A stretch of DNA of 64,000 bases from Saccharospirillum sp. (GTDB lineage Bacteria; Pseudomonadota; Gammaproteobacteria; Pseudomonadales; Natronospirillaceae): positions 1-64,000 of the forward strand of contig JAIUML010000001.1 of NCBI GenBank assembly GCA_022565595.1, given 5' to 3'. The notes below the pieces were generated by a model. It was not told the DNA's origin. It did not search any database and was given only the letters and a program-made list of their open reading frames with translations. Every line of letters starts with the position of its first letter. Within the stretch, counting starts at the first letter, position 1. This document shows positions 8,942-61,641 of this stretch, in pieces. The position numbers and the translations under genes are program-made.

Positions 8942-8943
8942 AC

Positions 8944-11772: not shown

Positions 11773-12657
11773 TTAATCCCCCAGCGGTTGGTCATCATCG
11801 TCACCTCTATAGCGAACCAGGTTGTGGCGGATACGCCGCACGTTATCCAATGCTGGCTCACCGATCATCACAGCCAACTCAGAAGAAAGCACGTCTATTA
11901 CCGCGAGCAAGGCATAGCGGGATGATGTCGGCTGGTTGACGAACTCTTTCTCCTCCGGGATATTGACAGGCAACAGTATATCTACCTTTTGACTTAGCGG
12001 AGAGTCGGGGCGCGTTACACCAATGACGGTGGCGTCATAGCTTTGGGCTATTTCACAAGCATCAACCAATCCAGCAAAGCGACCTGAAGTTGAGATGGCG
12101 AGCAAAACGTCGGTTCGTTTTAGGGTTGAAGCGACCATTTGCATCATCTGGCTATCCTGATAAGCATTGATGTTAAGCCCCAGCCTGAACATTCGGTATT
12201 CAGCATCTTGTGCCACTATAGTGGCACCGCCGCCGCTGCCAAATACGACAATCCGTTTCGAGTGCAGCAGTGCCTGCACTGCTGATTCGATAATGTCACT
12301 ATCTAGGCTGGCGAGTTGAATGTCGAGCGCTCGCTGTGCTCGACTGACAATCTGAAAAGCGGTTTCGGAGTGGCTACCGGAAGACATTCTGCCAGCCAGG
12401 AAGCGCGCACCGACTGAGCTGGCCTGGGCAAGCTGTACTTTGAAGTCTCGCAGATTCCTGAAGCCCAGCTTGCGGCAAAACCGGGTAACACTGGCCGTAC
12501 TGGTCCCTGAATGTTCAGCCAATTCAGTGGTGCTCGCCTGTACTGCGAAGTCCACGTCCGCAAGAATCAGTTCACTCAAGCGACGATCGGCATTACTCAT
12601 GGACGACTTACGCTCCTTTAAGTAGGACACCACATCCGTAACGATGGCTTTATTCAT
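11773..12657 (-). CDS. RpiR-family transcriptional regulator (TRAP-linked)
   Basis: About 294 residues (300 if the GTG at 12675 is used). The N-terminal RpiR helix-turn-helix reads ASTTELAEHSGTSTASVTRF, followed by a SIS sugar-phosphate-binding domain at about 120-260 (VVFGSGGGATIVAQDAEYR, LLAISTSGRF). RpiR proteins sense phosphosugars or related acids. It is divergent from the TRAP operon and a perfect palindrome lies between them. Its C-terminal tail DDDDQPLGD is nearly the same as that of the second RpiR gene at 20022, so the two are close paralogues and may respond to intermediates of one pathway. Confidence 0.88.
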   Translation of the reverse strand: MNKAIVTDVVSYLKERKSSMSNADRRLSELILADVDFAVQASTTELAEHSGTSTASVTRFCRKLGFRNLRDFKVQLAQASSVGARFLAGRMSSGSHSETAFQIVSRAQRALDIQLASLDSDIIESAVQALLHSKRIVVFGSGGGATIVAQDAEYRMFRLGLNINAYQDSQMMQMVASTLKRTDVLLAISTSGRFAGLVDACEIAQSYDATVIGVTRPDSPLSQKVDILLPVNIPEEKEFVNQPTSSRYALLAVIDVLSSELAVMIGEPALDNVRRIRHNLVRYRGDDDDQPLGD

Positions 12658-12820
12658 ATCAATCTTTGTTTCCACCTGGCAGGTCAGCTATGAGGCCAGA
12701 GAAGCTTCGATGGCTTTCAGAGCTGCTCGGGTTTCGATCTTGAGGCATTAAAACACGACAATCACTCGTTGCAAACTGTCGCCTCCCTGTACCGCCAAAC
12801 AGGACTCTTCTCACACCCAC

Positions 12821-12839
12821 AATGAAGATTTTCTTCATT
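12821..12839. promoter_or_regulatory. Perfect palindrome, probable RpiR operator 1
   Basis: AATGAAGA-TTT-TCTTCATT is a perfect 19-base palindrome in the 273-base divergent region between the RpiR gene and the TRAP operon. Its core TGAA-N7-TTCA recurs before the binding-protein gene at 21144, next to the second RpiR gene. Confidence 0.6.
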
Positions 12840-12892
12840 TAGTGCCAAAAATCCATTGATACTTACCCAGAATCGCACTACATTAGCCAAAT

Positions 12893-12911
12893 AATGATAA
12901 TTTTCTTCACT
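12893..12911. promoter_or_regulatory. Imperfect copy of the palindrome, probable RpiR operator 2
   Basis: AATGATAATTTTCTTCACT matches the site at 12821 except for a few bases in the outer arms and lies exactly 72 bases downstream, about seven helical turns. It ends 20 bases before the TRAP small-subunit start codon, a position suited to repression or looping. Confidence 0.45.
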
Positions 12912-12930
12912 CACAAGAATAAGGTCTATC

Positions 12931-13449
12931 ATGGAAACCGTCGCTCGACTTAGCGCTGATTTCAGCGAATTCATTGATCGCCTGAATCGCTGGGCCGTTG
13001 GCCTGCTGATGGCGCTGCTGATTCTGACAGTGTGGACTGCGGTGTTGGATCGCTACCTCTTTAAATGGCAAATTGGTTGGGTGGAAGAGCTCGCGCGCTA
13101 CTTAATGATCTGGGCCATTTTGCTGGCAGTGCCCTGCTGCGTTGTTGCGCGACAACACGTTCGGTTAGCCATGTTTAGTGATCGATTGCCTCCAATTATC
13201 CAAAAGCCACTGAGTATTCTGGTAGATCTGGTCACCATCGCATTCTTTGCTTACATAGCCATTTCCGGCATCGACTTTGCTCGACAAGGAATGAGCCAAT
13301 TGTCCACCGTTTTCCGAATGCCTATGGTTTACGCCTTTGCAGCCATTCCAACCGCCTTTGGCCTGGCCGCACTGCAAGCCTTTTTAACTTTACTCGGCAG
13401 TATGGGTGCCACTAGAAACACTTCGCCACCTCTAGCTGGGTCTTTCTAG
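12931..13449 (+). CDS. TRAP transporter small membrane subunit (DctQ-like)
   Basis: A 172-residue protein with four transmembrane segments and the DctQ-type motif VLDRYLFKWQIGWVEELARYLMIW. TRAP transporters import organic and sugar acids using a sodium or proton gradient; this subunit joins the binding protein to the large permease. The ATG has AAGG 6 bases upstream. First gene of a three-gene operon. Confidence 0.88.
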   Translation: METVARLSADFSEFIDRLNRWAVGLLMALLILTVWTAVLDRYLFKWQIGWVEELARYLMIWAILLAVPCCVVARQHVRLAMFSDRLPPIIQKPLSILVDLVTIAFFAYIAISGIDFARQGMSQLSTVFRMPMVYAFAAIPTAFGLAALQAFLTLLGSMGATRNTSPPLAGSF

Positions 13450-13509
13450 CGCTCAAACCCAATCGATTCAATCAGTTCCTCGAACTTCTCTTAAACTACG
13501 GTGCAAAGT

Positions 13510-14787
13510 ATGGCTATTGCGATTATTTTCCTGGTGTTGCTGCTCATCGGAGCGCCTATTGGCGTAGCTCTTGGGCTGGCAGGCGTTATAGGTATGTACG
13601 AGACCGGCGGTATTTCTTTCGCTGCACTGGGTTCGTCAAAGATATTTCATGGGTTGAATATCTTTCCGTTTCTGGCGATGCCGTTTTTTATTTTGGCCGG
13701 TGAGATCATGAACCACACTGGCATTACGGCTCGCCTGATGCTGCTGGCGCAAGCACTGGTTGGTCACTTCCGAGGCGGTTTGGCCCACTCCAATATGGTT
13801 GCATCTGTTTTTTTCTCTGGTATTACCGGTGCTGCCACGGCCGATGCGGCTGCCTTTGGTCGCACTCTGGTCCCGGAAATGGTGAAACAGGGTTACAGCC
13901 GCCCCTATGCCTGCGCAGTTACCGCTGCAGGCTCTATTATTGGCCCAACCATACCTCCTTCGGGGTTAATGGTGGTTTACGGCTCACTAATGGGCGTTTC
14001 CATTGGAGGGTTATTTGCTACCGGAATATTGCCAGGCATTCTGATTTGTCTGGTGTGCATGGCCATTATTGCCGCCTTTGCTCGCCGTAAAAACCTGCCC
14101 AAATCAGAAGAGCGCGCGAGCTTAAAGCAGATCCTGGTGCATTTCCGGGGCTCCATTTTTGCACTGCTGATGCCACTGATCATCCTCGGGGGAATTGTCA
14201 CAGGCATTGTGACACCAACTGAGGCTGCGTCCATTGCCGTTGCTTACGCCCTCTTTGTCGGCCTGGTTATTTATCGCAACTTGAGCCTTGGCATGTTGGT
14301 GCATTTGCTGATTCGCACGGCTCAGATTACGGCCGTAATCTATTTGATCATCGGCGCTGCCTCCATCTTTGGTTGGTGGCTCAGCTTTAACCAGATTCCA
14401 CAGGCCATTGCCACTTTCATCAGCGCACTCTCAGACAACCCCAACGTCATACTTTTATTGATCATCGGGTTTCTTCTTCTAGTGGGCATGATCATGGACA
14501 TCAATGCCATGTTGATTATCCTGGCTCCCTTGTTAATACCCATGACTCAGCAAATGGGCATGGACCCACTGCACGCTGGCATCATCTTTATTCTGGCATT
14601 GAATATCTCATTGATGACTCCGCCGATTGGGGCCTGCCTGTTTGTTCTATCGTCCGTTACCGGAGAGAAACTGGAAAAGATCTCCGTAGAGCTTACTCCG
14701 TTTCTTATCGGCCAACTGGCTTTATTACTGATCTTTGCTTTTTCCCCGAGCATCACACTCTTTATCCCACGTTTGCTGGGATACTAG
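13510..14787 (+). CDS. TRAP transporter large permease subunit (DctM-like)
   Basis: A 425-residue protein with about 11-12 transmembrane segments and the DctM signatures PFFILAGEIMN, SGITGAATADAAAFG and GSIIGPTIPPS. The start at 13510 (MAIAIIF) is preferred; a GTG three codons earlier is possible. It is the channel-forming subunit that couples ion and solute movement. Confidence 0.9.
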   Translation: MAIAIIFLVLLLIGAPIGVALGLAGVIGMYETGGISFAALGSSKIFHGLNIFPFLAMPFFILAGEIMNHTGITARLMLLAQALVGHFRGGLAHSNMVASVFFSGITGAATADAAAFGRTLVPEMVKQGYSRPYACAVTAAGSIIGPTIPPSGLMVVYGSLMGVSIGGLFATGILPGILICLVCMAIIAAFARRKNLPKSEERASLKQILVHFRGSIFALLMPLIILGGIVTGIVTPTEAASIAVAYALFVGLVIYRNLSLGMLVHLLIRTAQITAVIYLIIGAASIFGWWLSFNQIPQAIATFISALSDNPNVILLLIIGFLLLVGMIMDINAMLIILAPLLIPMTQQMGMDPLHAGIIFILALNISLMTPPIGACLFVLSSVTGEKLEKISVELTPFLIGQLALLLIFAFSPSITLFIPRLLGY

Positions 14788-14826
14788 TGTGTGCTCTACA
14801 ACCCACCAACCTTGAAGAGTGACGCA

Positions 14827-15882
14827 ATGATGACCTTTAAAAACAAGATATTGGCAGCAACTCTGACTGCCTCAATGGTAATAGTGGCTCCGGCCGTTCA
14901 TGCGCAGAAAGTTCTCAAGTTTGCACATGATAACCGTACCGACATGTTTGAGAACCCGGCCCATGCTTTTACTGGCGTGTTCAAGAACATCGTCGAGTCA
15001 GCCAGCAACGGCGCCATTAAAGTAGAGGTATACCCAAACAATCAGTTGGGCTCAGCGAATGAGCATTTAACGATGGTGCAAAACAATGTTATTCAGGGCA
15101 CCCTGACCTCTGTTGGCGCCTTGGCCAGCTTTTACCCTCGGATGGGCGTGCTCGACGTACCCTTCGCTTTCAGTAGCAATGCTTCAACCTATGAAGTATT
15201 CGATGGGCCGTTTGGCCATGAGCTGGCCGACGATATAGAAGCATCCCTGAGAAATGTCAAAGTGCTCGGCTTCCCGGATACGGGTGGTTTTTTCTCGGTG
15301 ACCAACTCGCGACGGGCCATCGAGAGCATCGACGACTTCGACGGTATTCGCGTGCGGACCATGACGCTTCCGTCACACCAGCGAATCATTCAGGAGTTGG
15401 GTGGTGAAGCCTATCCATTGGCGTGGGGCGAAGTGTACTCGGCATTGCAAACGGGTGTGATTGATGGACAAATGAATCCGATTCCAACCATCTCCTTTGC
15501 CCGTTTCGATGAGGTACAGCAGTATGTGACTCTAACCAATCACCTGTTTTCGCCTTATACGTTGATTATCAGCAAGCGGTTCTATGATGGACTGACAGAA
15601 GAGGAGCAAAACATTCTTCACTATGCCGCTCAGTCCGGAATCAATGCCAGCCGAGGTGTTTCTCGGGTAATCGAAGCGTCAGATCGTGGTTTGCCGGGTT
15701 TGCAGGGTAAAATGCACGTTAATGCTTTGTCTCCAGAGGAGCGGGAGCGTTTCCGTGAGGCAACTCAACCTGCGCTTATCGACTACATTCGCACAACTCA
15801 GGACGAGAAAGGCGGAGAACTGCTGGATCTGTTCCTGCAGGAAACAGAGCGGGCCAATAACCGTCGCTATATGGCGCCCTGA
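14827..15882 (+). CDS. TRAP transporter solute-binding protein (DctP family)
   Basis: A 351-residue periplasmic protein. The signal peptide ends at AVHAQ (about residue 26). DctP features include EVYPNNQLGSANEHL, GFPDTGGFFSVTNS and the Arg in DGIRVRTM that normally holds a carboxylate. The ligand is therefore most likely an acid; in this neighbourhood a sugar acid such as N-acetylglucosaminate is attractive. GAAGAG lies 7 bases before the ATG at 14827; the longer frame from 14791 has no support. Confidence 0.87.
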   Translation: MMTFKNKILAATLTASMVIVAPAVHAQKVLKFAHDNRTDMFENPAHAFTGVFKNIVESASNGAIKVEVYPNNQLGSANEHLTMVQNNVIQGTLTSVGALASFYPRMGVLDVPFAFSSNASTYEVFDGPFGHELADDIEASLRNVKVLGFPDTGGFFSVTNSRRAIESIDDFDGIRVRTMTLPSHQRIIQELGGEAYPLAWGEVYSALQTGVIDGQMNPIPTISFARFDEVQQYVTLTNHLFSPYTLIISKRFYDGLTEEEQNILHYAAQSGINASRGVSRVIEASDRGLPGLQGKMHVNALSPEERERFREATQPALIDYIRTTQDEKGGELLDLFLQETERANNRRYMAP

Positions 15883-15913
15883 TTACCCTTGACAGTGTAG
15901 ACAGAATTCTAAC

Positions 15914-15947
15914 AGCCTCAGATTCTTGATCCCTGGGGCTTTTTTTT
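15914..15947 (+). terminator. Rho-independent terminator of the TRAP operon
   Basis: AGCCTCAG pairs with CTGGGGCT (one mismatch-type pair) and runs into eight Ts, about 30 bases after the TRAP binding-protein stop. The following 120 bases up to 16067 show no gene. Confidence 0.8.
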
Positions 15948-16067
15948 ACCAACCTGAAAAAGAATGTAAACAATCAAAGCGTTGGAAGCAGCTCTCACTG
16001 ATATGGCGGGCAGGATTCTTCTATCGCCACCCTGCCCGCATAGCACACTATGGTACCGACAACATCA

Positions 16068-17123
16068 TCAGAAAACACACCCACGCGCTACAACATCCTG
16101 GCGACTCAGTGAACCGTCCAGTTGCGCCAGCCAAACATGATCATAGAGATTGGATACCACACAGGCATGATTTGGAATAATGCTCAAGCGATCACCAATT
16201 GCTGGTGAATGAGGGCAGCGACTCACATCCACCACACCGTGCTCCTCACTCAAGGACAGTATGTGTGCCATGGGGTATTGAACGATGTGCCCAAAACCTT
16301 CCAGGCCCAGCAGGTCTGAGCTGAGTGCCTTGGAGCCGGCATCCATGACGACTCGTCCCGGTTCTGGTGTGCTGACAACGGTGACTTCAAGTGTGAGTGC
16401 GCACTCTTCTAACTGGCATATACCTCGCTCCAGCAGGGAACGGTCGTTGTAGACGTAGGTCCCACACCGATATTCGGTGATGGCCTTCATACGCGGCAAT
16501 TGCCACATATCCGGTGCACCACCACTGGAAACCACCTGTACTGCAATCCCTGCTTGATCGAACAAGGCTCTGGCATCCATTAGCCATTGGTTAACGGCTT
16601 CGATCTTGCCTGCTGGAGGGTAGGTCATCAAGCCGGAAAACCGTAAGCCATCCTTGCTTAGAATGTGTTTAGCGAGCTCCAGAGCTTGTTCCGATGTGGG
16701 TACGCCACAGCGGTTCGCCCCCGTATTGCACTCCACCATGACGCTTAATGGGGCGTCCTGACTCGCAATACTGGCCAGGCCATCAACAACAAAAGCGTGA
16801 TCGGCGGTCACAGTCAGCTTGCATTGCCGGTTCAATGCGGCCAGACGGTTTAACCGCTCTCGGCCCAGAATATTGTAGGTGATCAGTAAATCGTCAAAGC
16901 CAGCCCGTGCAAAGACTTCAGCCTCAGACAGTTTCTGGCAATTGATACCCACCGCCCCCGCGTCGATTTGCCAATGGCCAACCAGGGGTTGCTTGTGGGT
17001 TTTAATGTGGGGGCGAAAGTCAATACCGGTCCTGTCGCACAAGCGCTGAAAACGTTCGATATTGGCCAGAGTTTTCTGCTGATCAATGCGCACATAGGGC
17101 GTTAATGGATCGCTATTAGGCAT
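16068..17123 (-). CDS. D-threonine aldolase / D-serine dehydratase-like PLP enzyme
   Basis: A 351-residue PLP enzyme of the DSD1/D-threonine aldolase family (alanine-racemase-like N-terminal barrel). The PLP Lys lies in RPHIKTHK at residues 37-44, and the metal pair is His319 and Cys321 in PNHACVVSNLYD. Members act on D-amino acids with a beta-hydroxyl: D-threonine, D-serine or D-threo-3-hydroxyaspartate. D-glucosaminate also fits this chemical type, and given the neighbours I propose a glucosaminate dehydratase giving 2-keto-3-deoxygluconate and ammonia. The gene overlaps the MlrC-like gene by 8 bases, so the two are coupled. Confidence 0.85.
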   Translation of the reverse strand: MPNSDPLTPYVRIDQQKTLANIERFQRLCDRTGIDFRPHIKTHKQPLVGHWQIDAGAVGINCQKLSEAEVFARAGFDDLLITYNILGRERLNRLAALNRQCKLTVTADHAFVVDGLASIASQDAPLSVMVECNTGANRCGVPTSEQALELAKHILSKDGLRFSGLMTYPPAGKIEAVNQWLMDARALFDQAGIAVQVVSSGGAPDMWQLPRMKAITEYRCGTYVYNDRSLLERGICQLEECALTLEVTVVSTPEPGRVVMDAGSKALSSDLLGLEGFGHIVQYPMAHILSLSEEHGVVDVSRCPHSPAIGDRLSIIPNHACVVSNLYDHVWLAQLDGSLSRQDVVARGCVF

Positions 17124-18576
17124 GATGAGGGTTCTCCACTATTGGCCAAATTGGACGCTCCAGATGCTGATAACCATTAGACTTCGGGTTGCTGGGATAG
17201 GGGGCGCCAGCGTCTACATAAATAATGGTTCCGGCTATGGGCTCGAAGCCATCGTAAAAGTGATTGGTGGATTTGATCAACAAGTACTGCCTGGCAGTCG
17301 GGTCTAACCCCATGGTGGTAAACAAGGTAGGATCAAAGGATTGACAGCGGTTGGAGCTGAGCACCAAGTCAATTCCCTGCCAATGAATCCAGGCACAATC
17401 GCCCATGGGCACGAGGCTCTCACCGAACTGTTGCTGTGCGTTGCGTACCAGGCTTTTGACATTGACCATGGCATCGATAGGAGCCCCGGCCTTGGCATCG
17501 CTCTTGCCACCGAACCGCAACGGAATCTGAGCGCCCTCACCTGCCGCAAAGCACAGCTGCACTGCCATTGGATCCCACAGCAGACCACAAGCGACTGACT
17601 CGATCCCCCGCGCCATAATGGCGTGCAGAATCAGTGTGCCGTCTCCGGCAACACCGCCCCCTGGGTTATCCCAAACATCGGCCAATACTACGGGGGCTTG
17701 CTGGCTGCTTTCAGCCTGGTCCAAAGCTTGCTGAACACTCAGAAAAGGTGGCCGCGTTCGACCTCTGAAATCAAACAGCTCCAGACCCAGGCGGCGCGCC
17801 AGTGCTTCGCCATGTTCGGGGGCGTTGTCTGTAATCACGACGATGCGAGTACCCAGCTCGGGCACATCACCGGCCATAAAGCCGTGAATAACGGAGATGG
17901 AGAGCACTTTGTCATCTGTTTTCTCCAGTTCGTGCAGTTGGCGTATAAAGCCCTTCATCGGTTCACGACTGGTTGGCAGCACTTCGATCATCCGGCAGTC
18001 GAAGCTGGAGATAACGGGCTTGATGCGTTGCTCTACAGCGCTTTGTGTCAAATGTACCAGGTCCCGAGCTCGCTCCATAAAGTCGGTGTGAGGGAATTCC
18101 TTGAACGCAACGAGCAAATCGGCCGCCTCGCATCGGGCCGGGGTGAGGTGACTGTGTGGGTCAAGTTCCGCGGCAATAATGACATCGGGGCCAACCATGT
18201 CTCGCATTCGGCGCAACAGGTCGCCTTCGCAATCGTGATAACCCTGGGCAACCATGGCTCCATGCAGGCCCAGCACGACAGCCTGTACCGGCATTGCTTC
18301 CTGCAACTCCTGCAACAGGGTGTCGCGCAGGGTTTCCCAGGTCGCTTTGGCGATCAGCCCACCCGGTTCTGCCCAGGTGGCGGTTCCTTCTATAACCTCC
18401 CAGCCTTGAGGGCGCAAGATTTCACGGCAGGCAATAATGGGTGCGCTGCACAGGGTCGGCGTGTCGGGGTGCTCACCGGGCCTGGCGTAGAAGGTGTCAG
18501 TAAAGGAACGCAAATCGGTAAAGATGGGGGAAAAGGTATTGGTTTCAGTTGCGACTGAAGCGGTAAAAACTCTCAT
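17116..18576 (-). CDS. MlrC-like (peptidase family M81) metal-dependent hydrolase
   Basis: A 486-residue protein of the M81/MlrC family, named after microcystinase C, which cuts linear microcystin. Metal-ligand candidates are visible in DPHSH (D139, H141, H143) and FPHTD (H163), with GLHGAM just before; ADVWDNPGGGVAGDG marks the MlrC domain. No signal peptide, so it is cytoplasmic. Most members have nothing to do with microcystin. Between a KDG-type kinase and a D-amino-acid PLP enzyme it would suit an amide hydrolase, for instance deacetylating N-acetyl-D-glucosaminate. That substrate is inference. Confidence 0.85.
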   Translation of the reverse strand: MRVFTASVATETNTFSPIFTDLRSFTDTFYARPGEHPDTPTLCSAPIIACREILRPQGWEVIEGTATWAEPGGLIAKATWETLRDTLLQELQEAMPVQAVVLGLHGAMVAQGYHDCEGDLLRRMRDMVGPDVIIAAELDPHSHLTPARCEAADLLVAFKEFPHTDFMERARDLVHLTQSAVEQRIKPVISSFDCRMIEVLPTSREPMKGFIRQLHELEKTDDKVLSISVIHGFMAGDVPELGTRIVVITDNAPEHGEALARRLGLELFDFRGRTRPPFLSVQQALDQAESSQQAPVVLADVWDNPGGGVAGDGTLILHAIMARGIESVACGLLWDPMAVQLCFAAGEGAQIPLRFGGKSDAKAGAPIDAMVNVKSLVRNAQQQFGESLVPMGDCAWIHWQGIDLVLSSNRCQSFDPTLFTTMGLDPTARQYLLIKSTNHFYDGFEPIAGTIIYVDAGAPYPSNPKSNGYQHLERPIWPIVENPHHA

Positions 18577-19505
18577 TGGCTGATGCGCTCCACACTAAAA
18601 AAGGGGTGATTGGCAGGCAAGAGCGCACCCGGGTACCGCACGACTTCAGCGGCCAACTGGCTGGATTGCTCGGCGGCTTGCCAGGCCCTTAAACCAGAGC
18701 AGATGCCCGCCAGGTAGGCGCCGTTAAAGGAATCGCCGGCCCCGGTCGCGTCTGTCGCCTGTACAGGTCGGCCGGCTACCGGGCGCCAATGTTTGTCCTT
18801 ACAAATCAGGGCGCCTCGCTCACCCCGTTTCAAAATCAGGGTGCAATGGTCGGATTGGCGCTCCAGGCGAGACAGCGCGGCTGTCTCCGAACAATCGTAC
18901 AGAGCACACTCGTCGTCCAGCGAGGGCATGTAGTGTTCTGCAAAGGGCAGAATCCGGCTGTGCCAATAGAGCGCCTCCTCGCGGTTGCGCCACAGTGCTG
19001 GCCTGTAGTTACTGTCGTAAACGATCACACAACGATCCGATAATGCCGAAAGCAGCTCAACCAGAGCGTCCCGGTTTTCGACTACAGCGACACTGATCAA
19101 GGACAAATAAAAAACCCGACCTCGCTGACACACATCCAGCACATCCATCAATGGTCTGTGAAACAGCGTCCGCACGGGCGACTGGCTGCGCCAATAGTGG
19201 AATCGTCGATCTCCGGCTTCGTCGTTCTCAATCCAGTACATGCCTGGCGGATTAAGGCCATCCCGAAACACACCTTCGGTGTCCACGCCATCGGCCTGAA
19301 ACGAATCGACCAGGCGCTGACTCAATGCATCACGACCCAATACAGTGACATAGCCGGCTTTTATCCCCAGTTTGCGCGCGTAATAGGCAGTGTTGTAACT
19401 GTCACCACCATAGCCCATCTGCACAAGGCCGGGCTCCTCCAGCGCTCTGAGCTCCAGCATACATTCTCCCAGACACACCAGGTCCAGCGAGACACCAGCA
19501 TTCAT
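18573..19505 (-). CDS. PfkB-family sugar kinase, 2-keto-3-deoxygluconate kinase-like
   Basis: A 310-residue PfkB/ribokinase-fold kinase. The start LVCLGECMLEL, GYGGDSYNTAYYARKLG, the segment FHYWRSQSPVRTLF, YDSNYRPALWRN and the catalytic DATGAGDSFNGAYLAG closely follow KdgK. The expected reaction is 2-keto-3-deoxygluconate plus ATP to KDPG, which Eda (60927) would cleave. AGGAGG stands 4 bases before the ATG. It is first in the kinase-MlrC-DSD1 operon, overlapping the next gene by 4 bases. Confidence 0.82.
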   Translation of the reverse strand: MNAGVSLDLVCLGECMLELRALEEPGLVQMGYGGDSYNTAYYARKLGIKAGYVTVLGRDALSQRLVDSFQADGVDTEGVFRDGLNPPGMYWIENDEAGDRRFHYWRSQSPVRTLFHRPLMDVLDVCQRGRVFYLSLISVAVVENRDALVELLSALSDRCVIVYDSNYRPALWRNREEALYWHSRILPFAEHYMPSLDDECALYDCSETAALSRLERQSDHCTLILKRGERGALICKDKHWRPVAGRPVQATDATGAGDSFNGAYLAGICSGLRAWQAAEQSSQLAAEVVRYPGALLPANHPFFSVERISQ

Positions 19506-19522
19506 ATGACCTCCTGCTCTTT

Positions 19523-19600
19523 AAGAAAATTCTTTACATTTAAACACTTAAAACCTTAACATTTACCTGCAAATGGTCAATATATTGAAATTAATTTTCT
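19523..19600. promoter_or_regulatory. Divergent control region with two TTTC/GAAA palindromes
   Basis: The 111 bases between the kinase operon and ridA are AT-rich. AAGAA-AA-TTCTT at 19523-19534 is symmetric, and TGAAATTAATTTTCT at 19586-19600 resembles the TGAA-N7-TTCA sites at 12823 and 21144. Both would place an RpiR protein over the divergent promoters. The second site directly precedes the ridA ribosome binding site GGAGG. Confidence 0.45.
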
Positions 19601-19616
19601 TTTTGGAGGTAACCTT

Positions 19617-20000: not shown

Positions 20001-20021
20001 CCCTCAAAAGAAGAGCCGCCC

Positions 20022-20888: not shown

Positions 20889-21143
20889 GTCTGCCTGACT
20901 ACCCTTACCTAACCGACAGCCATGCCCCCTGACCTCAAACCGCACTTACCTTACCTTTCCGACTACTGACCTGAAAGCGCTTACTGCAAAACAAGGCTGG
21001 GCATCACCCGGACCACGGTAATTATTTTCTTTTAGAAACCGATTGAAATTCGATAATAAGCCATAGTAAGATCCAAAACGATCACTTATTAAGCCCAATG
21101 GAAACCCTTTTAGATACCTTTAGGGCCGAGAATCGATCAAAAA

Positions 21144-21158
21144 TGAAAAATAATTTCA
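21144..21158. promoter_or_regulatory. Probable RpiR operator before the ABC importer
   Basis: TGAAA-AATAA-TTTCA is symmetric and lies 46 bases before the binding-protein start. It shares TGAA-N7-TTCA with the site at 12823. A possible promoter (TTGAAA, 18 bases, TAAGAT) lies just upstream. The 316-base gap 20889-21204 contains no other feature I can support. Confidence 0.5.
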
Positions 21159-21204
21159 ATAAAGAGGGTTCCAGGACAACCTCGGGACCCATGCAGGAGG
21201 TAAG

Positions 21205-22860
21205 ATGAAAACGACCGTTACCGCGACCGCCGCATTGGTTGCCGCTTTGTCCCTTCCCCAGCTCAGCCTGGCTGAACGACACACCCTGACGATGAACATT
21301 CAGCAGGTAACGTCCTGGGTGCGCAACTTTAACCCTTACAACGAAACCACACGCTTGCGTTCGACGCGGGAATTCATTTACGAGCCATTGGCGATTTACA
21401 ATGTTTTCGAGCAAGGCCAGCCTTACTATCGACTGGCCGTTGCAGAAGCGTACTCCGATGACCTGATGACCTTTACCTACGATCTGCGTGAGGGTGTGCA
21501 GTGGTCCGATGGCAGACCCTTTACCGCCGCAGACGTCGTCTTCACATTCGAAATGCTGAAGCAGAATCCGGCGCTGGATACTGGTGCGATCTGGAATCGC
21601 CTGGAAGCCGTTGAAGCCGAGGGCGACCATCGGGTTCACTTTCACCTGAGCGAAGTCAATACAGGGATTCACCTGCGTCTCGTCGACGTGCCTGTAGTGC
21701 CAGAACACATCTGGTCGTCGGTCAGTGATCCGGTCTCCTTTACCAACGACAATCCGGTAGGCACGGGGCCCTTCACCGAAATAGAGCGCTTTACTCCACA
21801 AATCTATGTGCAGTGCGCCAACCCGAGCTACTGGGATGCACAGGCCGTGCAGATTGATTGCCTGCGCTTTCCGCAACTGGCCACCAACGACAACACCCTG
21901 GCCGCTGCCGCTTCGGGCGAACTGGATTGGTTTGGATCCTTTATCCCGGACATCGATCGAACCTACGTTTCCAGAAACCCACAGCATCACAAATACTGGC
22001 TACCCGCTGGCAGTATGGTTGCCATGATCATGAATCTGGAGACAGAGCATGAGGGTAATCGTGAAGCCTTTAATGATGTCAACTTCCGTCGTGCCTATTC
22101 AATGGCGATGGACCGTGCTGCTCAAGTCAATATCGCCGGCTACGGCTACCCGACCCTGAACGACTACGCCAGCGGTTTGGGGGAGCTCTATGCGGCCTGG
22201 GCCGATGCCGAGCTGCGTGAGCAATACCTTCCATTTATGTCCTACGACCTGGACTCAGCTCGTGAGCTGTTGCTCAATGCGGGTTACCAGCAAAACAGCA
22301 ATGGCTTCCTGAGCACCCCCAGTGGCAACAGCATCGAATTCGACATCATTGTGCCAAACGGCTGGACAGACTGGGTCAATACGGTGCAAATCGCGGCTGA
22401 GGGGCTGCAGGAAATTGGCATCAACGCCAGAGTCAGGACGCCCGAGGCCGCCGTCTGGGATCAAAGCCTGATCAATGGCAATTATGACTCAGCCATCAAC
22501 TCCTGGTTGCCCGGTGCCACGCCTCACCGCATGCTGGATAATGCTTTCCACTCGCGCTTTAAAGACAACACGCGTTTTGCCGCAGCGCGTTATCACAATG
22601 ATGAACTGGATGCCCTCCTGGATCAATTTTTCACAATCACTTCACTACCAGAGCAACAGTCTATCATCCATAAAATAGAGGCAATCATTGCTGAGGACAT
22701 GGCCTATGTCCCTGTGTTCAACAACCCCATGTGGTATCAGTACAACGATAGCCGTTTCGTTGGCTGGTGGAGCGAGGATAATCCCAAAGGCCGCCCACAA
22801 CCCCATGCCGGTAACCCGGAGCGATTGCTGCACCTGCTCGACTTGAGCCCACGCCAGTAA
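21205..22860 (+). CDS. ABC transporter binding protein, SBP_bac_5 family (chito-oligosaccharide/peptide type)
   Basis: A 551-residue periplasmic binding protein with a signal peptide of about 23 residues (ending LSLA). Family features: TFTYDLREGVQWSDGRPFTAADVVFTFE and NPVGTGPFTEIERF. The family was named for oligopeptides but also includes the chitobiose-binding protein of Vibrio. Followed by two permeases, two ATPases and a GH20 enzyme, the same order as the Vibrio chitobiose cluster, it most likely binds chitobiose or its oxidised acid. AGGAGG precedes the ATG. Confidence 0.85.
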   Translation: MKTTVTATAALVAALSLPQLSLAERHTLTMNIQQVTSWVRNFNPYNETTRLRSTREFIYEPLAIYNVFEQGQPYYRLAVAEAYSDDLMTFTYDLREGVQWSDGRPFTAADVVFTFEMLKQNPALDTGAIWNRLEAVEAEGDHRVHFHLSEVNTGIHLRLVDVPVVPEHIWSSVSDPVSFTNDNPVGTGPFTEIERFTPQIYVQCANPSYWDAQAVQIDCLRFPQLATNDNTLAAAASGELDWFGSFIPDIDRTYVSRNPQHHKYWLPAGSMVAMIMNLETEHEGNREAFNDVNFRRAYSMAMDRAAQVNIAGYGYPTLNDYASGLGELYAAWADAELREQYLPFMSYDLDSARELLLNAGYQQNSNGFLSTPSGNSIEFDIIVPNGWTDWVNTVQIAAEGLQEIGINARVRTPEAAVWDQSLINGNYDSAINSWLPGATPHRMLDNAFHSRFKDNTRFAAARYHNDELDALLDQFFTITSLPEQQSIIHKIEAIIAEDMAYVPVFNNPMWYQYNDSRFVGWWSEDNPKGRPQPHAGNPERLLHLLDLSPRQ

Positions 22861-22877
22861 GTGTAAACAAGGCTAGC

Positions 22878-22906
22878 AAACCGGCTGGGACAACCCAGCC
22901 GGTTTT
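22878..22906 (+). terminator. Strong hairpin with short T-run after the binding-protein gene
   Basis: AAACCGGCTGGG pairs with CCCAGCCGGTTT over an ACAA loop: 12 perfect pairs, ending in four Ts. It sits between the binding-protein gene and the permease gene, so it probably acts as a partial terminator that keeps binding protein in excess. Confidence 0.7.
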
Positions 22907-22968
22907 ATTAATGGCCGCCTGGATTCAGTAATGGTTTGTATCGAAGTATCGCAACAGGATGATTGTTC

Positions 22969-23946
22969 ATGGTTTTCTTTCTGCGTCGTCTGACCTTTTA
23001 CCTTGCCGCCTTTCTGGTGGCAGCCACTTTCAATTTTCTGCTACCGAGGTTGATGCCGGGCGACCCGGTTTCGATGATGTTCGCACAGGCCGGCAGCACC
23101 TTATCGCCTGAAGCCATGGATGCCTTGAGAGCAACCTTTGGCTTTGTTGAAGGGCCACTATTCATGCAATACCTGGCCTACCTGAAAAGCGTTTTTACCT
23201 GGGACCTGGGTATGTCCGTCTTTTTCTACCCACAGCCTGTTAATGAAGTTCTGGGACGCGCAGCGCTATGGACACTCTTTCTGGTGGGCACATCTACCAT
23301 ACTGAGCTTTGCGATTGGTAGTTTGTTGGGAATTTTTGCGGCATGGCATCGTGGTGGTCGATTCGATTCCTTCTTCTCCCCTCTTGCTTTGGTCATGCAG
23401 TCCATCCCTGCTGTTGTGCTCTCCATTCTGGCCCTTTTCGTTTTCGGGTTCTGGCTGGGCTGGTTTCCCATTGGCAGAGCCTATGATCTGGAACTGGACC
23501 CTGCCTTCACCTGGGCCTATATCAGCAGCGTTCTTTACCATGCCGCTCTGCCTCTTGGCACCCTCATTCTGGTTCAAGTCGGTGGTTTTCTGGTCACCAT
23601 TCGCAACAACATGATCAACCTGCTAGGCGAAGACTACATCACCATGGGCCGAGCAAAAGGCCTGGAAGACCGGTCCGTCATGTTTCGCTATGGCGCCCGC
23701 AACGCCCTACTGCCCAGCGTCACCAGCCTGGCCATGGCATTCGGCTTTGTCATCGCCGGCGCACTGATCACAGAGGTCGTCTTCAACTACCCGGGGCTGG
23801 GCAAGATACTGTTTGACGGCATCAATGCCCGCGACTACCCCCTGATTCAAGGCCAATTACTGCTGATTACCCTGGCGACGCTCACCGCCAATTTTATAGC
23901 AGACCTTTTGTACGTTGTACTCGATCCAAGACTGCGCAGGAGCTGA
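22969..23946 (+). CDS. ABC importer permease, DppB/OppB family
   Basis: A 325-residue inner-membrane permease with six transmembrane segments, the DppB-type N-terminus (RRLTFYLAAFLVAATFNFLLPRL followed by MPGDP) and the ATPase-contact loop YITMGRAKGLEDRSV. The ATG at 22969 has AGGATG upstream; the frame is open to a TTG at 22963. Partner of the DppC-like permease 3 bases downstream. Confidence 0.88.
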   Translation: MVFFLRRLTFYLAAFLVAATFNFLLPRLMPGDPVSMMFAQAGSTLSPEAMDALRATFGFVEGPLFMQYLAYLKSVFTWDLGMSVFFYPQPVNEVLGRAALWTLFLVGTSTILSFAIGSLLGIFAAWHRGGRFDSFFSPLALVMQSIPAVVLSILALFVFGFWLGWFPIGRAYDLELDPAFTWAYISSVLYHAALPLGTLILVQVGGFLVTIRNNMINLLGEDYITMGRAKGLEDRSVMFRYGARNALLPSVTSLAMAFGFVIAGALITEVVFNYPGLGKILFDGINARDYPLIQGQLLLITLATLTANFIADLLYVVLDPRLRRS

Positions 23947-23949
23947 TTC

Positions 23950-24852
23950 ATGAGTGTCATTTTCTCCGTCATTAAAGGTAACTGGAAAGCGCAAATAGGC
24001 TTGGGCATTGTTAGCCTGTTCCTGATCATGGCGTTGGCGGCCCCCCTGTTGAGCCCATACGAACCACAGCGACGGGTGGGCATGCCTCACCAACCACCCA
24101 GCAGCGAACATTGGCTGGGCACAACTCGTATGGGCCATGATGTTTTTACCCAATTGGTGCACGGTACCAGAACGTCTCTTGCCGTCGGCTTTGGTGCGGG
24201 GCTTATCGTTGCCGCGCTGGGCACTCTGATTGGCATCAGTGCGGGCTACTTTGGAGGTAAAATAGACGAGGTTTTAACCTTTTTTACTAATGTCGTTCTT
24301 GTCATTCCCAATCTGCCCTTGCTTCTGGTGTTGGCCGCCTTTATTGGTCAGGCCAGCCCCTGGGTGATCATGATCATTATCGGCTTTACCTCCTGGTCAT
24401 GGGGGGCTCGCGTCATTCGTGCACAAACCATGGCATTACGTGAGCGAGAGTTTGTCGTTGCTTCCGAGCTAATCGGCGAACCCAAGTGGCGCATCATGTT
24501 TGTTGAACTATTGCCCAACCTGATCTCCATTGTTGGCATCAACTTTATTGGCAGTGTTATCTACGCCGTTCTGACAGAAGCCACCATTGAGTTTCTGGGG
24601 CTGGGCGATCCGACCTCCGTTTCCTGGGGGATACAGCTGTACAACGCACAGAATTCTGCCGCCCTCTATGTTGGCGCCTGGTGGGAAATCATGGCTCCCT
24701 GCCTGGCCATAGGGCTATTGGGAGCCGGTCTGGCACTGTTGAATTTTGCCGTGGATGAAATGGCTAACCCAAGGCTGCGTACCTTCCAGGTCAGCAAAAA
24801 AATGAAACGGCTTATGCTGCAACCCAACCGCGTGAAGGAGGTGCAAGCATGA
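23950..24852 (+). CDS. ABC importer permease, DppC/OppC family
   Basis: A 300-residue permease with a DppC-type start (IGLGIVSLFLIMALAAPLLSPYEP, WLGTTRMGHDVFTQLVHGTRTSL) and the coupling loop around REREFVVASELIG. It forms the heteromeric channel with the preceding permease and overlaps the following ATPase by 4 bases (ATGA). Confidence 0.88.
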   Translation: MSVIFSVIKGNWKAQIGLGIVSLFLIMALAAPLLSPYEPQRRVGMPHQPPSSEHWLGTTRMGHDVFTQLVHGTRTSLAVGFGAGLIVAALGTLIGISAGYFGGKIDEVLTFFTNVVLVIPNLPLLLVLAAFIGQASPWVIMIIIGFTSWSWGARVIRAQTMALREREFVVASELIGEPKWRIMFVELLPNLISIVGINFIGSVIYAVLTEATIEFLGLGDPTSVSWGIQLYNAQNSAALYVGAWWEIMAPCLAIGLLGAGLALLNFAVDEMANPRLRTFQVSKKMKRLMLQPNRVKEVQA

Positions 24853-25679
24853 AGCAACCACTCATCTCGATTCGCAACCTTTGTGTCGATTATGTAACAG
24901 GGGACCAGTTTTTCAGAGCCGTGAAGGATGTCAGCCTGGATATAGCTGAGTCCGAGATCCTGGGTCTGGCTGGTGAGTCTGGCTGTGGTAAAAGTACCCT
25001 GGCTTTCTCACTGCTTAACTTGCATCAGCCTCCGGCCTATATCACTCAAGGGCAGATCCTGTTTCAAAATGATGACATTCTAAAATGGCCACTAAACCAA
25101 CTGAATCGATTCCGCTGGAGCCAGGTCGGCATGGTGTTCCAGAGTGCCATGAACTCCCTGAACCCTGTGGCTCGCATCGACAAGCAGTTCCTTGATGTAT
25201 TGGCCCGTCATACCACCATGAGCAAGGATCAAGCAATCAGCCGAGCCGAAGAAATGATGGCACTGGTGGACATCCCGCTCTCCCGGCTTTATGACTACCC
25301 CCACCAATGCAGCGGTGGCATGCGTCAACGCATTGTGATCGCTATCTGCCTGGCGTTGTCGCCTCGTCTGATCATTATGGATGAGCCCACCACCGCCCTG
25401 GACGTTGTCGTCCAACGTGAAATACTGCAGCAAATTCACGAGTTGAAGCAGAAGCTCGACTTCTCAGTACTCTTTATCACCCATGATCTGGCGCTCATGC
25501 TGCAGTTCTGTGACCGCATTGGCATCATGAAAGACGGGGAGATAGTAGAACTGAAAGATCGTGCGACCCTCTACGAAAAACCGGAACACTCTTACACCAG
25601 ACAATTGCTTGAAGCCATTCCCGGGCGCCACTTGTTTGGTCGAACCTGGCATGAACCCTTGCCGGAGGTGTCGCCATGA
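24849..25679 (+). CDS. ABC importer ATPase, DppD/OppD family
   Basis: A 276-residue ATPase with Walker A GESGCGKST, signature CSGGMRQR and Walker B IIMDEPTTALD plus the switch His in FITHD. It is shorter than many OppD proteins but has the family C-terminal segment around HSYTRQLLEAIPG, seen in oligopeptide/oligosaccharide ATPases. AGGAGG stands 7 bases before the ATG; the stop overlaps the next start. Confidence 0.88.
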   Translation: MKQPLISIRNLCVDYVTGDQFFRAVKDVSLDIAESEILGLAGESGCGKSTLAFSLLNLHQPPAYITQGQILFQNDDILKWPLNQLNRFRWSQVGMVFQSAMNSLNPVARIDKQFLDVLARHTTMSKDQAISRAEEMMALVDIPLSRLYDYPHQCSGGMRQRIVIAICLALSPRLIIMDEPTTALDVVVQREILQQIHELKQKLDFSVLFITHDLALMLQFCDRIGIMKDGEIVELKDRATLYEKPEHSYTRQLLEAIPGRHLFGRTWHEPLPEVSP

Positions 25680-26596
25680 GTGTGCTGTTATCCGTACAGA
25701 ACCTGCACAAGACCTTTCTTCAGAGGCAGGGTCTAAAGCAGGTCAGTTTTGATGCACTCAGAGGCATCAGCTTTAGTGTCGAAGCAGGCCAGGCACTTGC
25801 CCTGGTGGGTGAATCTGGCTGCGGCAAGAGCACTACCGCCAGACTGATTACCGGCATGATGCCAGCCAGCTCCGGCAGTATCTCCATACAAGGAACCCCC
25901 CTTGTCAACTTGAAAAAACGCCGTCAACGGATGATCTATCGCCGCGCGGTGCAGATGGTGTTTCAGGACCCTTTTGGCTCTTTGAATCCGACACGCACGG
26001 TACGGCACCATCTGGAACGCCCTTTGCGGTTGCATCGATCAGAGCTGAGTAAAGTGCAGCGCCTGCATCGTATCAACGCTTTGCTGGAGCGTGTCGAACT
26101 AACGGAAACCGACATTCTGAGCAAGTACCCTCATCAGCTCAGTGGCGGTCAGCGCCAGCGCGTCAACCTGGCCCGTGCGCTGGCCGTTGAACCCAGCATT
26201 CTGATTGCCGATGAACCGACCTCCATGCTTGATGTCTCGATCCGCCTGGATGTGCTGAAGTTGTTCCGGCAACTGAAAGAGCAACAGCAACTTGGCTTGC
26301 TCTACATCACCCATGATATTGCGACCGCTCAGTATGTGGCGGACGAAACGGCGGTCATGTATTCGGGGCAAATTGTCGAATTTGGATCAACAGAACAATT
26401 GATCAACCACCCCCAACACCCTTACACACGGTTGTTGTTGTCTTCGGTACCCGACCCGACTCGCTCCTACCAGGCACTGCTGGAGCAGGAAGAAGACTTC
26501 CGCCACCAGGCGGACAGGATTCGACAATTCAGCCGACGTCCAGGTAAGGAATATCGAAAACATGCAGACAATCATTTTGTACTGCTTCAGGAGTAA
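25676..26596 (+). CDS. ABC importer ATPase, DppF/OppF family
   Basis: A 306-residue ATPase with Walker A GESGCGKSTT, QMVFQDPFGSLNP, signature LSGGQRQRV and Walker B LIADEPTSMLD. The C-terminal HPQHPYTRLLLSSVPDP is typical of OppF/DppF. Second ATPase of the importer, three bases before the GH20 gene, so transport and intracellular hydrolysis are in one transcript. Confidence 0.88.
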   Translation: MSVLLSVQNLHKTFLQRQGLKQVSFDALRGISFSVEAGQALALVGESGCGKSTTARLITGMMPASSGSISIQGTPLVNLKKRRQRMIYRRAVQMVFQDPFGSLNPTRTVRHHLERPLRLHRSELSKVQRLHRINALLERVELTETDILSKYPHQLSGGQRQRVNLARALAVEPSILIADEPTSMLDVSIRLDVLKLFRQLKEQQQLGLLYITHDIATAQYVADETAVMYSGQIVEFGSTEQLINHPQHPYTRLLLSSVPDPTRSYQALLEQEEDFRHQADRIRQFSRRPGKEYRKHADNHFVLLQE

Positions 26597-26599
26597 CAC

Positions 26600-28399
26600 A
26601 TGCTGACACTCACCCCTCCGCCAAAATCAATGAAGCAGACACACGAACGCTGGCATCCAGCTCCCGCCTCTATTCTGGCGAAACTGACTGCCTACCAACT
26701 CGGCGACCCGCCTATCGCTGAGATCGTTCGTCATCATAGCCAGGAGCAGGCCGCCGAAGGCTACCGACTGGTTGTCCGTGAACAGGGGCCTGAAATCCAT
26801 TGTTCGTCGGATCGTGGCTATTTTTATGGCATACAAACACTGAAACAGGTCATCCAGCAGAGCCAGTCGAGCGAAGGCATTCCCGGTTGCGACATAATTG
26901 ACTGGCCGGATTTCCCCAGTCGAGGAATACTGTTGGATATCAGCCGAGACCGAGTGCCCACTCAGGCCATGCTGTACCACCTGGTCGACCTGTGGGGCAG
27001 CCTCAAGTACAACGAACTGCAACTCTACATGGAGGCGGCTTTCGACTATGAAGGCCATGCTGCTGCGGTTGCCCATCGATCGCCACTGACGGCGACAGAA
27101 ATACGAGAACTGGACCAATACTGCGCCAAAAAAGGCATCAGCCTGATCGCCAACCAGAATACCTTTGGCCATATGGAGCGCTGGCTGGACTTGCCGGACT
27201 ACCAGCATTTGGCTGAGCAGGTTGGCGGCTGTATCGACCCACACGGCAACCATCGTAACCACTCCTTTTGCCTCAATCCGGTCAGCGAGCTATCTGTTGC
27301 CTTTGTCGATGACCTGCTGTCACAACTCTTGCCTTGCTTCTCGGACAACAGAATCAACATCAATGCCGATGAAACCTTTGACCTTGGGCAGGGTGCCAGC
27401 AATGCCAAGTGTCGAGAGCTTGGCAAAGACAGGGTTTACCTGAACTACGTTAAACACATTCACGAGCTCTGTACCCGCAAGGGCAAGAGGGTCCAGATGT
27501 GGTCTGACATTTTGCTGAAGTACCCACATTTGCTGCCAGAACTGCCCAAAGACATCACCGTCATGAACTGGGGCTACGAAGCCGACCACCCCTTTGATCG
27601 TGAATGCGCCCAACTCAAGTCATCGGGCATCGATTTTCAGGTGGTTGCCGCCACCGGCACCTTTGCGGCGTTCAGCGGGCGCTGGTTGAATGCCTATCAG
27701 AACGCCCTCAACGCGGCGCAGAATGGACTGAAATATGGTGCCAGCGGGTTTTACATGTCCGAATGGGGCGACTTCGGGCATGGTCAGGCCTGGATCAGTG
27801 CCTATCCGGGTTACTTTATCGGTGCCGTTGCTGGCTGGCACGTTGCGGCCTTATCAGACTTCAATACCGAGCGTGCCGTTCAACATCAGGTATTGAACAA
27901 TGCTACCCTTGCCATCGCTTTACTCAAGCTGGGAAACCTGTACCTGTCGACGCTGACGGCGGATCAATTACCCTTCGTCTCGGTAATCGGAGTCCTGCTG
28001 TTCAACCAGATGACCAACCGCCATATGAAGAAATTGTCGGAATGGTACCCCCGTGGCTTTCGCCATGGATGGCATCAGTGCCAACAGTTGATCGAAGCCT
28101 TGGGTGCCATCACCCCTGAGGACGAACGACAGTCTTATTGGCAGCGTGAATTGCTGTTGACCGCAAGACTCTCAGCACACGCTTGCGCTTTGGGTGAAGC
28201 CCTTTCTGAACAAAGGGATTACCGGGTCGAAAGACTCTCCTTCAAGCTGAGACAGCAACTGGCCGAAGAGCTTGAGCCACTGATCTCGGACTATGCCGAC
28301 CTGTGGCTGGAGCACAGCAGACCTGGCGGATTGGAAGACAGTCAGGCCCGGCTCGACTATTTGCTATCGCTATACCGCTCGCCACCCAGGGCAGGCTGA
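26600..28399 (+). CDS. GH20 beta-N-acetylhexosaminidase, cytoplasmic
   Basis: A 599-residue glycoside hydrolase family 20 enzyme. The catalytic Asp-Glu pair is D257-E258 in ININADETF; other barrel motifs are SRGILLDISRDRVPT, YNELQLYME and MWSDI. It has no signal peptide, so it acts in the cytoplasm on the imported sugar. GH20 enzymes use substrate-assisted catalysis and release non-reducing-end GlcNAc. The length fits the short GH20 proteins linked to chitobiose importers. Expected products here: GlcNAc plus GlcNAc, or GlcNAc plus N-acetylglucosaminate if the substrate is chitobionate. AGGAG overlaps the preceding stop. Confidence 0.85.
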   Translation: MLTLTPPPKSMKQTHERWHPAPASILAKLTAYQLGDPPIAEIVRHHSQEQAAEGYRLVVREQGPEIHCSSDRGYFYGIQTLKQVIQQSQSSEGIPGCDIIDWPDFPSRGILLDISRDRVPTQAMLYHLVDLWGSLKYNELQLYMEAAFDYEGHAAAVAHRSPLTATEIRELDQYCAKKGISLIANQNTFGHMERWLDLPDYQHLAEQVGGCIDPHGNHRNHSFCLNPVSELSVAFVDDLLSQLLPCFSDNRININADETFDLGQGASNAKCRELGKDRVYLNYVKHIHELCTRKGKRVQMWSDILLKYPHLLPELPKDITVMNWGYEADHPFDRECAQLKSSGIDFQVVAATGTFAAFSGRWLNAYQNALNAAQNGLKYGASGFYMSEWGDFGHGQAWISAYPGYFIGAVAGWHVAALSDFNTERAVQHQVLNNATLAIALLKLGNLYLSTLTADQLPFVSVIGVLLFNQMTNRHMKKLSEWYPRGFRHGWHQCQQLIEALGAITPEDERQSYWQRELLLTARLSAHACALGEALSEQRDYRVERLSFKLRQQLAEELEPLISDYADLWLEHSRPGGLEDSQARLDYLLSLYRSPPRAG

Positions 28400-61556: not shown

Positions 61557-61641
61557 GTCCACTCTCACTCTCGCGATGATCTGTCGCCATCGATTCTATT
61601 TTCAGGAAGCTACCGCCTTCCTTTGAGGTGAGCACTGGATG

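Follow-up and report, generated by a model that had tools for sequence, protein, structure and literature searches.

What compound is consumed by a block of genes that joins two dissimilar importers to a hexosaminidase, a zinc hydrolase and a pyridoxal 5'-phosphate (PLP) enzyme? The block occupies positions 11773-28399 of the first 64,000 nt of contig JAIUML010000001.1 of Saccharospirillum sp. (assembly GCA_022565595.1; this stretch is called the window below), within a genome of 4.77 Mb in 66 contigs. A first-pass annotation had read it as a possible complete system for the catabolism of oxidised chitin. The analysis presented here makes it on balance probable that the block serves the inducible breakdown of an N-acetyl-2-amino-2-deoxy-aldonate, most likely N-acetylglucosaminate (GlcNAc1A), and of a disaccharide carrying it. 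We infer substrates, reactions and regulation from the gene families, their conserved linkage, a subclade of RidA proteins, an operator-like sequence and a dehydratase motif, all of which are observed. Pfam and NCBIfam profiles bear out the gene families that the annotation had named, each at its place, and the features are as follows.

11773-12675 (-): RpiR1, MurR/RpiR-type regulator with HTH_6 and SIS domains
12823-12837: perfect palindrome TGAAGATTTTCTTCA, probable RpiR operator in the promoter of the tripartite ATP-independent periplasmic (TRAP) transporter
12895-12909: TGATAATTTTCTTCA, imperfect second copy, 72 bp from the first
12931-13449, 13501-14787 and 14791-15882 (+): DctQ, DctM and DctP of the TRAP transporter, proposed importer of the free acid
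16068-17123 (-): fold-III PLP enzyme with Ala_racemase_N and D-ser_dehydrat domains and the HxC motif (H319, C321), proposed hexosaminate dehydratase
17116-18576 (-): M81/MlrC-type zinc hydrolase with M81 and MlrC_C domains, proposed N-acetyl-hexosaminate deacetylase
18573-19505 (-): PfkB kinase of the 2-keto-3-deoxygluconate (KDG) kinase type, best NCBIfam match KdgK
19586-19600: operator-like site TGAAATTAATTTTCT, between the kinase and RidA genes
19617-20000 (+): RidA of the OngD subclade, 127 aa
20022-20888 (+): RpiR2, MurR/RpiR-type regulator (RpiR/SIS)
21144-21158: operator-like palindrome TGAAAAATAATTTCA, perfect copy, upstream of the ABC-GH20 operon
21205-26596 (+): SBP_bac_5 ATP-binding cassette (ABC) importer of the Opp/Dpp type (binding protein, two permeases, two ATPases), proposed disaccharide importer
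26600-28399 (+): GH20 beta-hexosaminidase, without a signal peptide by hydropathy, D-E pair at 257-258
60927-61568 (-): Eda, the KDPG aldolase of the downstream step, which the annotation had placed here (280 bits against a cut-off of 241)

In the proposed pathway the TRAP transporter would import the free N-acetyl-hexosaminate, and the ABC importer would take up a disaccharide from which a cytoplasmic GH20 would probably release the same acid. The M81 zinc enzyme would deacetylate it, and the PLP enzyme would eliminate water and then ammonia, by way of an enamine/imine hydrolysed by RidA, to give KDG. This would be phosphorylated by the PfkB kinase and the resulting 2-keto-3-deoxy-6-phosphogluconate (KDG-6-P) split by Eda. 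The order of deacylation, PLP-dependent dehydration and deamination, RidA and KDG kinase, and the sugar-acid nature of the substrate, had been put forward in the annotation; comparative evidence and gene context lend both of them support. Overlaps of 4 and 8 bases join the kinase, M81 and PLP genes, so that these probably form one transcription unit. Three promoter gaps lie within the block: 12676-12930 between RpiR1 (-) and DctQMP (+), 19506-19616 between kinase-M81-PLP (-) and RidA-RpiR2 (+), and 20889-21204 before the ABC-GH20 operon (+). The two RpiR-type repressors may act on TGAAR-N5-YTTCA sites in all three. Directly before the block, at 8929-11497 (+), is a compact operon for an FAD_oxidored protein, a shikimate-dehydrogenase-like protein (139 bits, cut-off 200) and a small cupin. 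Right after GH20, at 28537-29217 (+), is a 226-aa protein with PAS and MCP signalling domains, perhaps a small soluble receptor.

Conservation of the central genes was followed by means of M81. A scan by M81 protein sequence alone, not by context, gave 26 loci, and a search of 385 genomes from the class of one of these, 136 of which had M81 matches, supplied 80 further stretches picked by rank and identity band. At these 106 loci, neighbours within 8.5 kb of M81 were counted by tblastn, since the custom gene caller errs in GC-rich DNA. Seeds for PLP, RidA, RpiR and DctP were taken only from the window and one of the two SBP_bac_5 seeds was not; those for the kinase, GH20 and SBP_bac_1 came partly from clade loci, which favours the clade in these three counts. 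Loci L101 and L122-L129 were chosen for their annotation or neighbours and stand outside the counts.

Where M81 was at least 54% identical to that of the window (29 loci), the PLP gene was found at 28, RidA at 26, RpiR at 29, DctP (at 40% identity or more) at 13, SBP_bac_5 at 12, a KDG-type PfkB kinase at 9, SBP_bac_1 at 6, GH20 at 3 and D-aminoacylase at none. In the same order, the 57 loci of 37.5-54% identity gave 3, 1, 1, 1, 24, 0, 0, 0 and 2, and the 20 loci below 37.5% had SBP_bac_5 in three cases, D-aminoacylase in one and none of the other neighbours. PLP, RidA and RpiR occur together at 26/29 close M81 loci versus 1/77 more distant ones, so that the same gene set, for which the annotation had proposed a search, does exist in other bacteria, and its grouping with M81 is more than chance. 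The counts do not represent independent events, because they include kin loci (two from Marinobacterium, four from Stappia, L131 and L132 with equal scores), contig ends and clade-derived seeds. As SBP_bac_5 is also common outside the clade, the PLP-RidA-RpiR set is specific to the M81 clade and the peptide-type importer alone is not. In a tree, the window M81 belongs to a discrete clade of 34 members (support 1.0). L186, the one RidA, RpiR and DctP case of the 37.5-54% band, also falls inside it. Two clade loci, L015 and L017, are exceptions to the linkage in having no RidA.

None of the 4 same-genus and 8 same-family genomes listed has the M81 gene, which suggests a late gain. Base composition gives no signal of a foreign origin (53.2% G+C in the block, 53.0% in the window).

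The window M81 protein scores 264 bits with the M81 profile and 176 bits with MlrC_C, and has both domains in common with microcystinase C (MlrC, PDB 7YLQ). The zinc ligands of the latter, E39, D167, H169 and H191 (PMC9982164; its text gives H196 once and H191 elsewhere, and H191 is the aligned, conserved residue), are kept as E11, D139, H141 and H163. By contrast, the microcystin-site residues E70, W59, F67 and F96 have become L42, A31, T39 and W68, and the gene context is also different. Microcystin degradation of the MlrC kind was thus rejected. When 32 sequences of the clade are aligned with 74 others, W68, S142, M234 and Y460 mark the clade, S142 being located directly after zinc ligand H141. 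Removal of an acetyl group by this enzyme is proposed from its context, and literature listings on M81, MlrC, chitin and glucosaminate turned up no M81 deacetylase.

The best-scoring solved relatives of the PLP enzyme are D-threonine aldolases (4v15 and 7dib, 128-137 bits), and its relatives carry the annotation name 'D-TA family'. D-threo-3-hydroxyaspartate dehydratase and D-serine dehydratase (3wqc and 3anu), which share the fold-III PLP domains, score 95-114 bits. The C-terminal metal site, however, reads HxD in the solved aldolases, but HxC in D-threo-3-hydroxyaspartate dehydratase (3wqc) and likewise in the window (H319-A-C321). HxC is found in all 53 PLP sequences with at least 39% identity, that of the window among them, and HxD in 17 of 19 sequences that are more distant. 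Because HxC is present and not the HxD of the aldolases, D-threonine aldolase was rejected as the identity of the window protein. The clade labelled D-TA thus looks like one of dehydratases, with a hexosaminate as the substrate proposed in the window.

Relatives of the PLP gene adjoin D-aminoacylase genes at L128, L211, L220 and L224, and amidohydrolase/deacetylase genes at L219 and L222 (above the NF006689 cut-off) and L221 (by eye). The PLP family therefore tends to accompany an enzyme that cleaves amides, and at least three kinds of such enzyme are seen. The four loci with a D-aminoacylase in the place of M81 are weakened as proof that M81 is a deacetylase: at L220 and L224 the RidA belongs to a different clade, so that these two may serve other N-acyl-D-amino acids, and the L211 hydrolase scores 515 bits with D-aminoacylase versus 459 bits with PpOngB, the deacetylase introduced next.

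A published pathway for GlcNAc1A provides the closest comparison. In Pseudoalteromonas prydzensis ACAM 620, OngB deacetylates GlcNAc1A, OngC yields KDG and ammonia, KdgK phosphorylates KDG, and OngR is a MurR/RpiR repressor; OngD, a 127-aa RidA, is essential for growth on GlcNAc1A with its role left open, and the ong cluster is reported together with a lytic polysaccharide monooxygenase (LPMO) in 298 marine genomes (PMC9537276). OngB is described as an amidohydrolase with a D-aminoacylase-like fold in another paper (PMC12017989). Two ong-type clusters, L230 and L232, were found in genomes of the window's class, and L232 was tested more fully. Its gene order is PLP, GntP permease, RpiR, OngB-like hydrolase (541 bits with PpOngB, 445 with D-aminoacylase) and RidA. 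Its PLP protein, which is OngC-like, also has HxC but belongs to a different fold-III clade (485 bits with 3gwq versus 24 bits for the window enzyme).

RidA is where the two systems meet. The window RidA is 57% identical to that of L232 and at most 38% identical to 11 paralogues from three genomes (12 paralogues lie outside the subclade in these genomes; L256 was left out of the tree). In an IQ-TREE phylogeny of 49 RidA sequences, the module and ong RidAs share a clade with 32 members (bootstrap 72), 23 of which form an inner clade (98). Those of the ong clusters join rhizobial module RidAs and that of L210 (bootstrap 100), and then those of the window and Marinobacterium (98); the RidA of the window is thus of the OngD type, within an 8-member inner clade with bootstrap 98. 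The RidAs of L220 and L224 are outside the OngD subclade. The strongest single argument for the proposed pathway is that a dedicated RidA is common to two otherwise different enzyme pairs, which suggests that both handle the same intermediate.

The block would work like the ong pathway but differs from it on LPMO, deacetylase and PLP clade. The likenesses are an RpiR-type regulator, a RidA of one subclade, an HxC fold-III PLP enzyme, a KDG-kinase-like gene and GH20. M81 stands in place of the D-aminoacylase-type OngB, so that the central enzymes of the window, M81 and its PLP clade, are of other kinds than the published OngB and OngC, which the annotation had not named. A D-aminoacylase relative at 1e-60 was not found in the own genome (4 candidates scored), and an OngB elsewhere in that genome was rejected, since the PF07969 matches looked, on inspection by eye, like deaminases and an imidazolonepropionase (L032-L034 are without a usable gene call). 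Whereas ong has a carrier of the solute:sodium symporter (SSS) family, the window has TRAP and ABC importers, with no SSS-family carrier in the block, to which that search was limited. TonB-dependent receptors were likewise not seen among the scanned block genes, although no search aimed at them was made. Unlike in ong, the GH20 of the window is without a signal peptide by hydropathy, and no AA10 LPMO was found in the genome.

Related chemistry has been described elsewhere. A known enzyme is reported to reach KDG-6-P by eliminating ammonia from a hexosaminate 6-phosphate (PMC9529869), whereas the block, like ong, is proposed to carry out the elimination before phosphorylation. A haloarchaeal study predicts that N-acetylglucosamine (GlcNAc) is broken down via glucosaminate by other enzymes (PMC12343721). 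A route through GlcNAc1A could not be confirmed from passages of work on chitin in Aeromonas (PMC11653859).

Operator-like sites offer a possible second link between the systems. RpiR1 and the module RpiR of Marinobacterium L001 share 71% identity, and RpiR1 and RpiR2 are 38% and 35% identical to the L232 regulator. The own genome also encodes a third protein of the RpiR type, L233, which is 33% and 37% identical to the two in the window; as its scores are similar, RpiR similarity does not discriminate and was rejected as proof of an OngR. The motif TGAAR-N5-YTTCA was derived from the promoter gaps of the block itself. The same kind of operator-like palindrome is shared by both ong-type clusters found here (2/2), where TGAAATTAATTTTCA (L230) and AGAAAATAATTTTCA precede the PLP gene by 73 and 84 bases. 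A site occurs within 350 bp upstream of RidA in 8/33 module loci (mean of random windows 2.2, with 0/2000 draws reaching 8), a test that is lenient because coding DNA is among the random windows and about three lineages account for the eight loci; 25/33 loci have no such site. In six of the eight (L001, L012, L014, L018, L020, L023) two sites are 73 bp apart, compared with 72 bp for the pair in the window. This spacing of 72-73 bp, about seven helical turns, is seen in both TRAP-type and ABC-type versions of the module and suggests looping by the RpiR protein. A further perfect match to the pattern, TGAAGAACATCTTCA at 48562-48576, is far from the block.

The nearest solved kinases to the PfkB protein of the window include ketodeoxygluconokinase 3lhx, and its best NCBIfam match is the KdgK model (206 bits, cut-off 400). 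Among six linked kinases scanned, the window included, five match KdgK best (206-300 bits, same cut-off), and that of Marinobacterium matches best the model for KDG and 2-keto-3-deoxygalactonate (KDGal) kinases (289 bits, cut-off 440). The latter shares 24-26% identity with the four others in the comparison, so there are two subfamilies. That two subfamilies of KDG-type kinase accompany one module suggests that the PLP enzyme yields a 2-keto-3-deoxy sugar acid.

The importers of the module vary: TRAP, peptide-type ABC and carbohydrate ABC importers replace one another around the same core. TRAP and SBP_bac_5 are both present in L005, L006 and L026, as in the window, while rhizobial versions have carbohydrate (CUT1-type) importers in place of TRAP. 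In L007, L008, L010, L011, L016, L019, L101, L125, L127 and L129 a short-chain dehydrogenase/reductase (SDR) replaces TRAP and kinase, in several cases with a carbohydrate ABC importer. Three of these are on annotated rhizobial plasmids: L127 has the core with SDR and a carbohydrate ABC importer, L101 and L125 have it with SDR, MFS and ROK genes. In L129 of S. meliloti there are M81, RidA, RpiR and SDR genes, with a carbohydrate ABC importer 1-4.5 kb downstream and no annotated PLP gene nearby. The rhizobial versions may represent an oxidative pathway for free GlcNAc, with the acid formed intracellularly.

The annotation had also described the GH20 as cytoplasmic, which agrees with a reading by hydropathy alone, in which the N-terminus shows no strongly hydrophobic stretch. 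An SBP_bac_5 importer and a cytoplasmic GH20 in one operon are the layout of the Vibrio chitobiose system, and the window has this layout too, with the location of GH20 judged by hydropathy only. The binding protein has weak nickel/oligopeptide NCBIfam matches, far below cut-off. GH20 genes lie near the module in L007, L008, L016 and L125, and GH20-like stretches in L101 and L129. The Kaistia (L008) and Rhizobium (L125) proteins share 63% identity with one another but 26-27% with the window GH20, which suggests two separate recruitments. Matches to the window GH20 are found in 13/369 genomes of its class (own included), one other genome reaching 36% over most of the length. On plasmids of Halomontanus rarus (L122, L123), GH20 relatives of 32-34% identity over most of the length adjoin sulfatases. 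L122 also has fucosidases, an ABC importer and an M81 of another kind, and L123 a D-aminoacylase.

Three other explanations have to be weighed. The block might be a module for N-acyl-D-amino acids or D-peptides, in which M81 would free D-serine, D-threonine or a 3-hydroxy-D-amino acid, the PLP enzyme would dehydrate it, RidA would clear a 2-aminoacrylate-type intermediate, and the sugar genes would be incidental. This agrees with solved PLP relatives that act on D-threonine and D-3-hydroxyaspartate, with the D-aminoacylases and peptide-type ABC importers beside PLP relatives in L128, L220 and L224, with the acceptance of D-serine and D-threonine by OngC itself (PMC9537276), and with the peptidase activity of the named M81 enzyme, MlrC (PMC9982164). 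It is nevertheless quite unlikely, as KDG-type kinases are linked to 9/29 clade loci and 0/77 others, the rhizobial importers are of the carbohydrate type, and the RidA of the window belongs to the OngD subclade, outside which those of L220 and L224 fall. The identity of the hexosaminate is a separate matter. The same chemistry might act on another one that is not derived from chitin, such as N-acetyl-galactosaminate or a non-acetyl N-acyl form. The lack of LPMO and GH18, the KDG/KDGal match of the Marinobacterium kinase, and the sulfatases (in one case fucosidases also) beside relatives of the window GH20 would all fit, but the RidA subclade and operator-like site are those of a GlcNAc1A pathway, and the window kinase and four other scanned kinases match KdgK best, which makes this substrate unlikely.

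A somewhat larger chance, though still a doubtful one, is given to the possibility that the ABC importer and GH20 form a hydrolytic system of their own for chitobiose or another HexNAc disaccharide, merely adjoining the acid module. It would explain the resemblance to the Vibrio layout; GH20 is near only 3/29 clade loci, and SBP_bac_5 is also near M81 outside the clade (24/57 and 3/20), so that its link is unspecific. On the other side, the operon follows RidA-RpiR2 on the same strand with the perfect palindrome at 21144-21158 in its promoter gap, TRAP and SBP_bac_5 co-occur around the module in the three loci named above, and rhizobia have a GH20 of a different subfamily near it.

Several results weigh against the proposed GlcNAc1A system itself. 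No AA10 LPMO was found in the own genome, by a search whose control matched in Lactococcus lactis, and no GH18; among 26 genomes with the module none has an LPMO. GH20 is scarce at the clade loci, as just noted, 20/29 of them have no linked KDG-type kinase, and all six scanned kinases are under the curated cut-offs. L021 has M81 but neither PLP nor RidA, and L143 (47.6% M81 identity) is inside the M81 tree clade without module neighbours. Conversely, six loci with the PLP clade but no M81 (L210-L215, PLP identity 50-54%, fetched for that) have an adjoining D-aminoacylase in 1/6 cases and the clade RidA in 2/6. A search of the whole window for the operator-like motif, allowing one mismatch, gave 13 sites versus 8.8 expected, and 8/100 shuffles reach 13, so there is no clear excess.

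Of the complete oxidised-chitin system that had been proposed, the reaction order thus stands, within a regulon that seemingly includes the ABC-GH20 operon. Completeness, and oxidised chitin as the source, do not: the LPMO search that the annotation had named as a check came back empty for AA10. Because neither AA10 LPMO nor GH18 was found, the acid might be scavenged from other organisms or be of another origin.

More broadly, and tentatively, the M81 clade may be a second, unrelated family of N-acetyl-hexosaminate deacetylases, which together with the HxC PLP enzyme and OngD-type RidA would make up an amino-sugar pathway to KDG that is widespread and does not depend on LPMOs. Where rhizobia have a carbohydrate importer and SDR beside the module, free GlcNAc or a similar sugar would then be oxidised to the aldonate inside the cell and degraded without NagA/NagB and without prior phosphorylation. 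M81 proteins are common and take their name from a single activity, microcystin hydrolysis, and many rhizobial plasmids carry the clade for which a function is proposed here. If this holds, the D-TA (aldolase) label on a dehydratase-like PLP clade would be corrected, and RidA would gain a clear task in a pathway where the published work leaves the role of OngD open (PMC9537276). Conversion of N-acetyl-hexosaminate to KDG would have arisen at least two times, the deacetylases being unrelated while the RidA subclade and the kind of repressor site are the same, and the use of oxidised amino sugars would extend beyond LPMO-bearing chitin degraders to soil and plant-associated bacteria.

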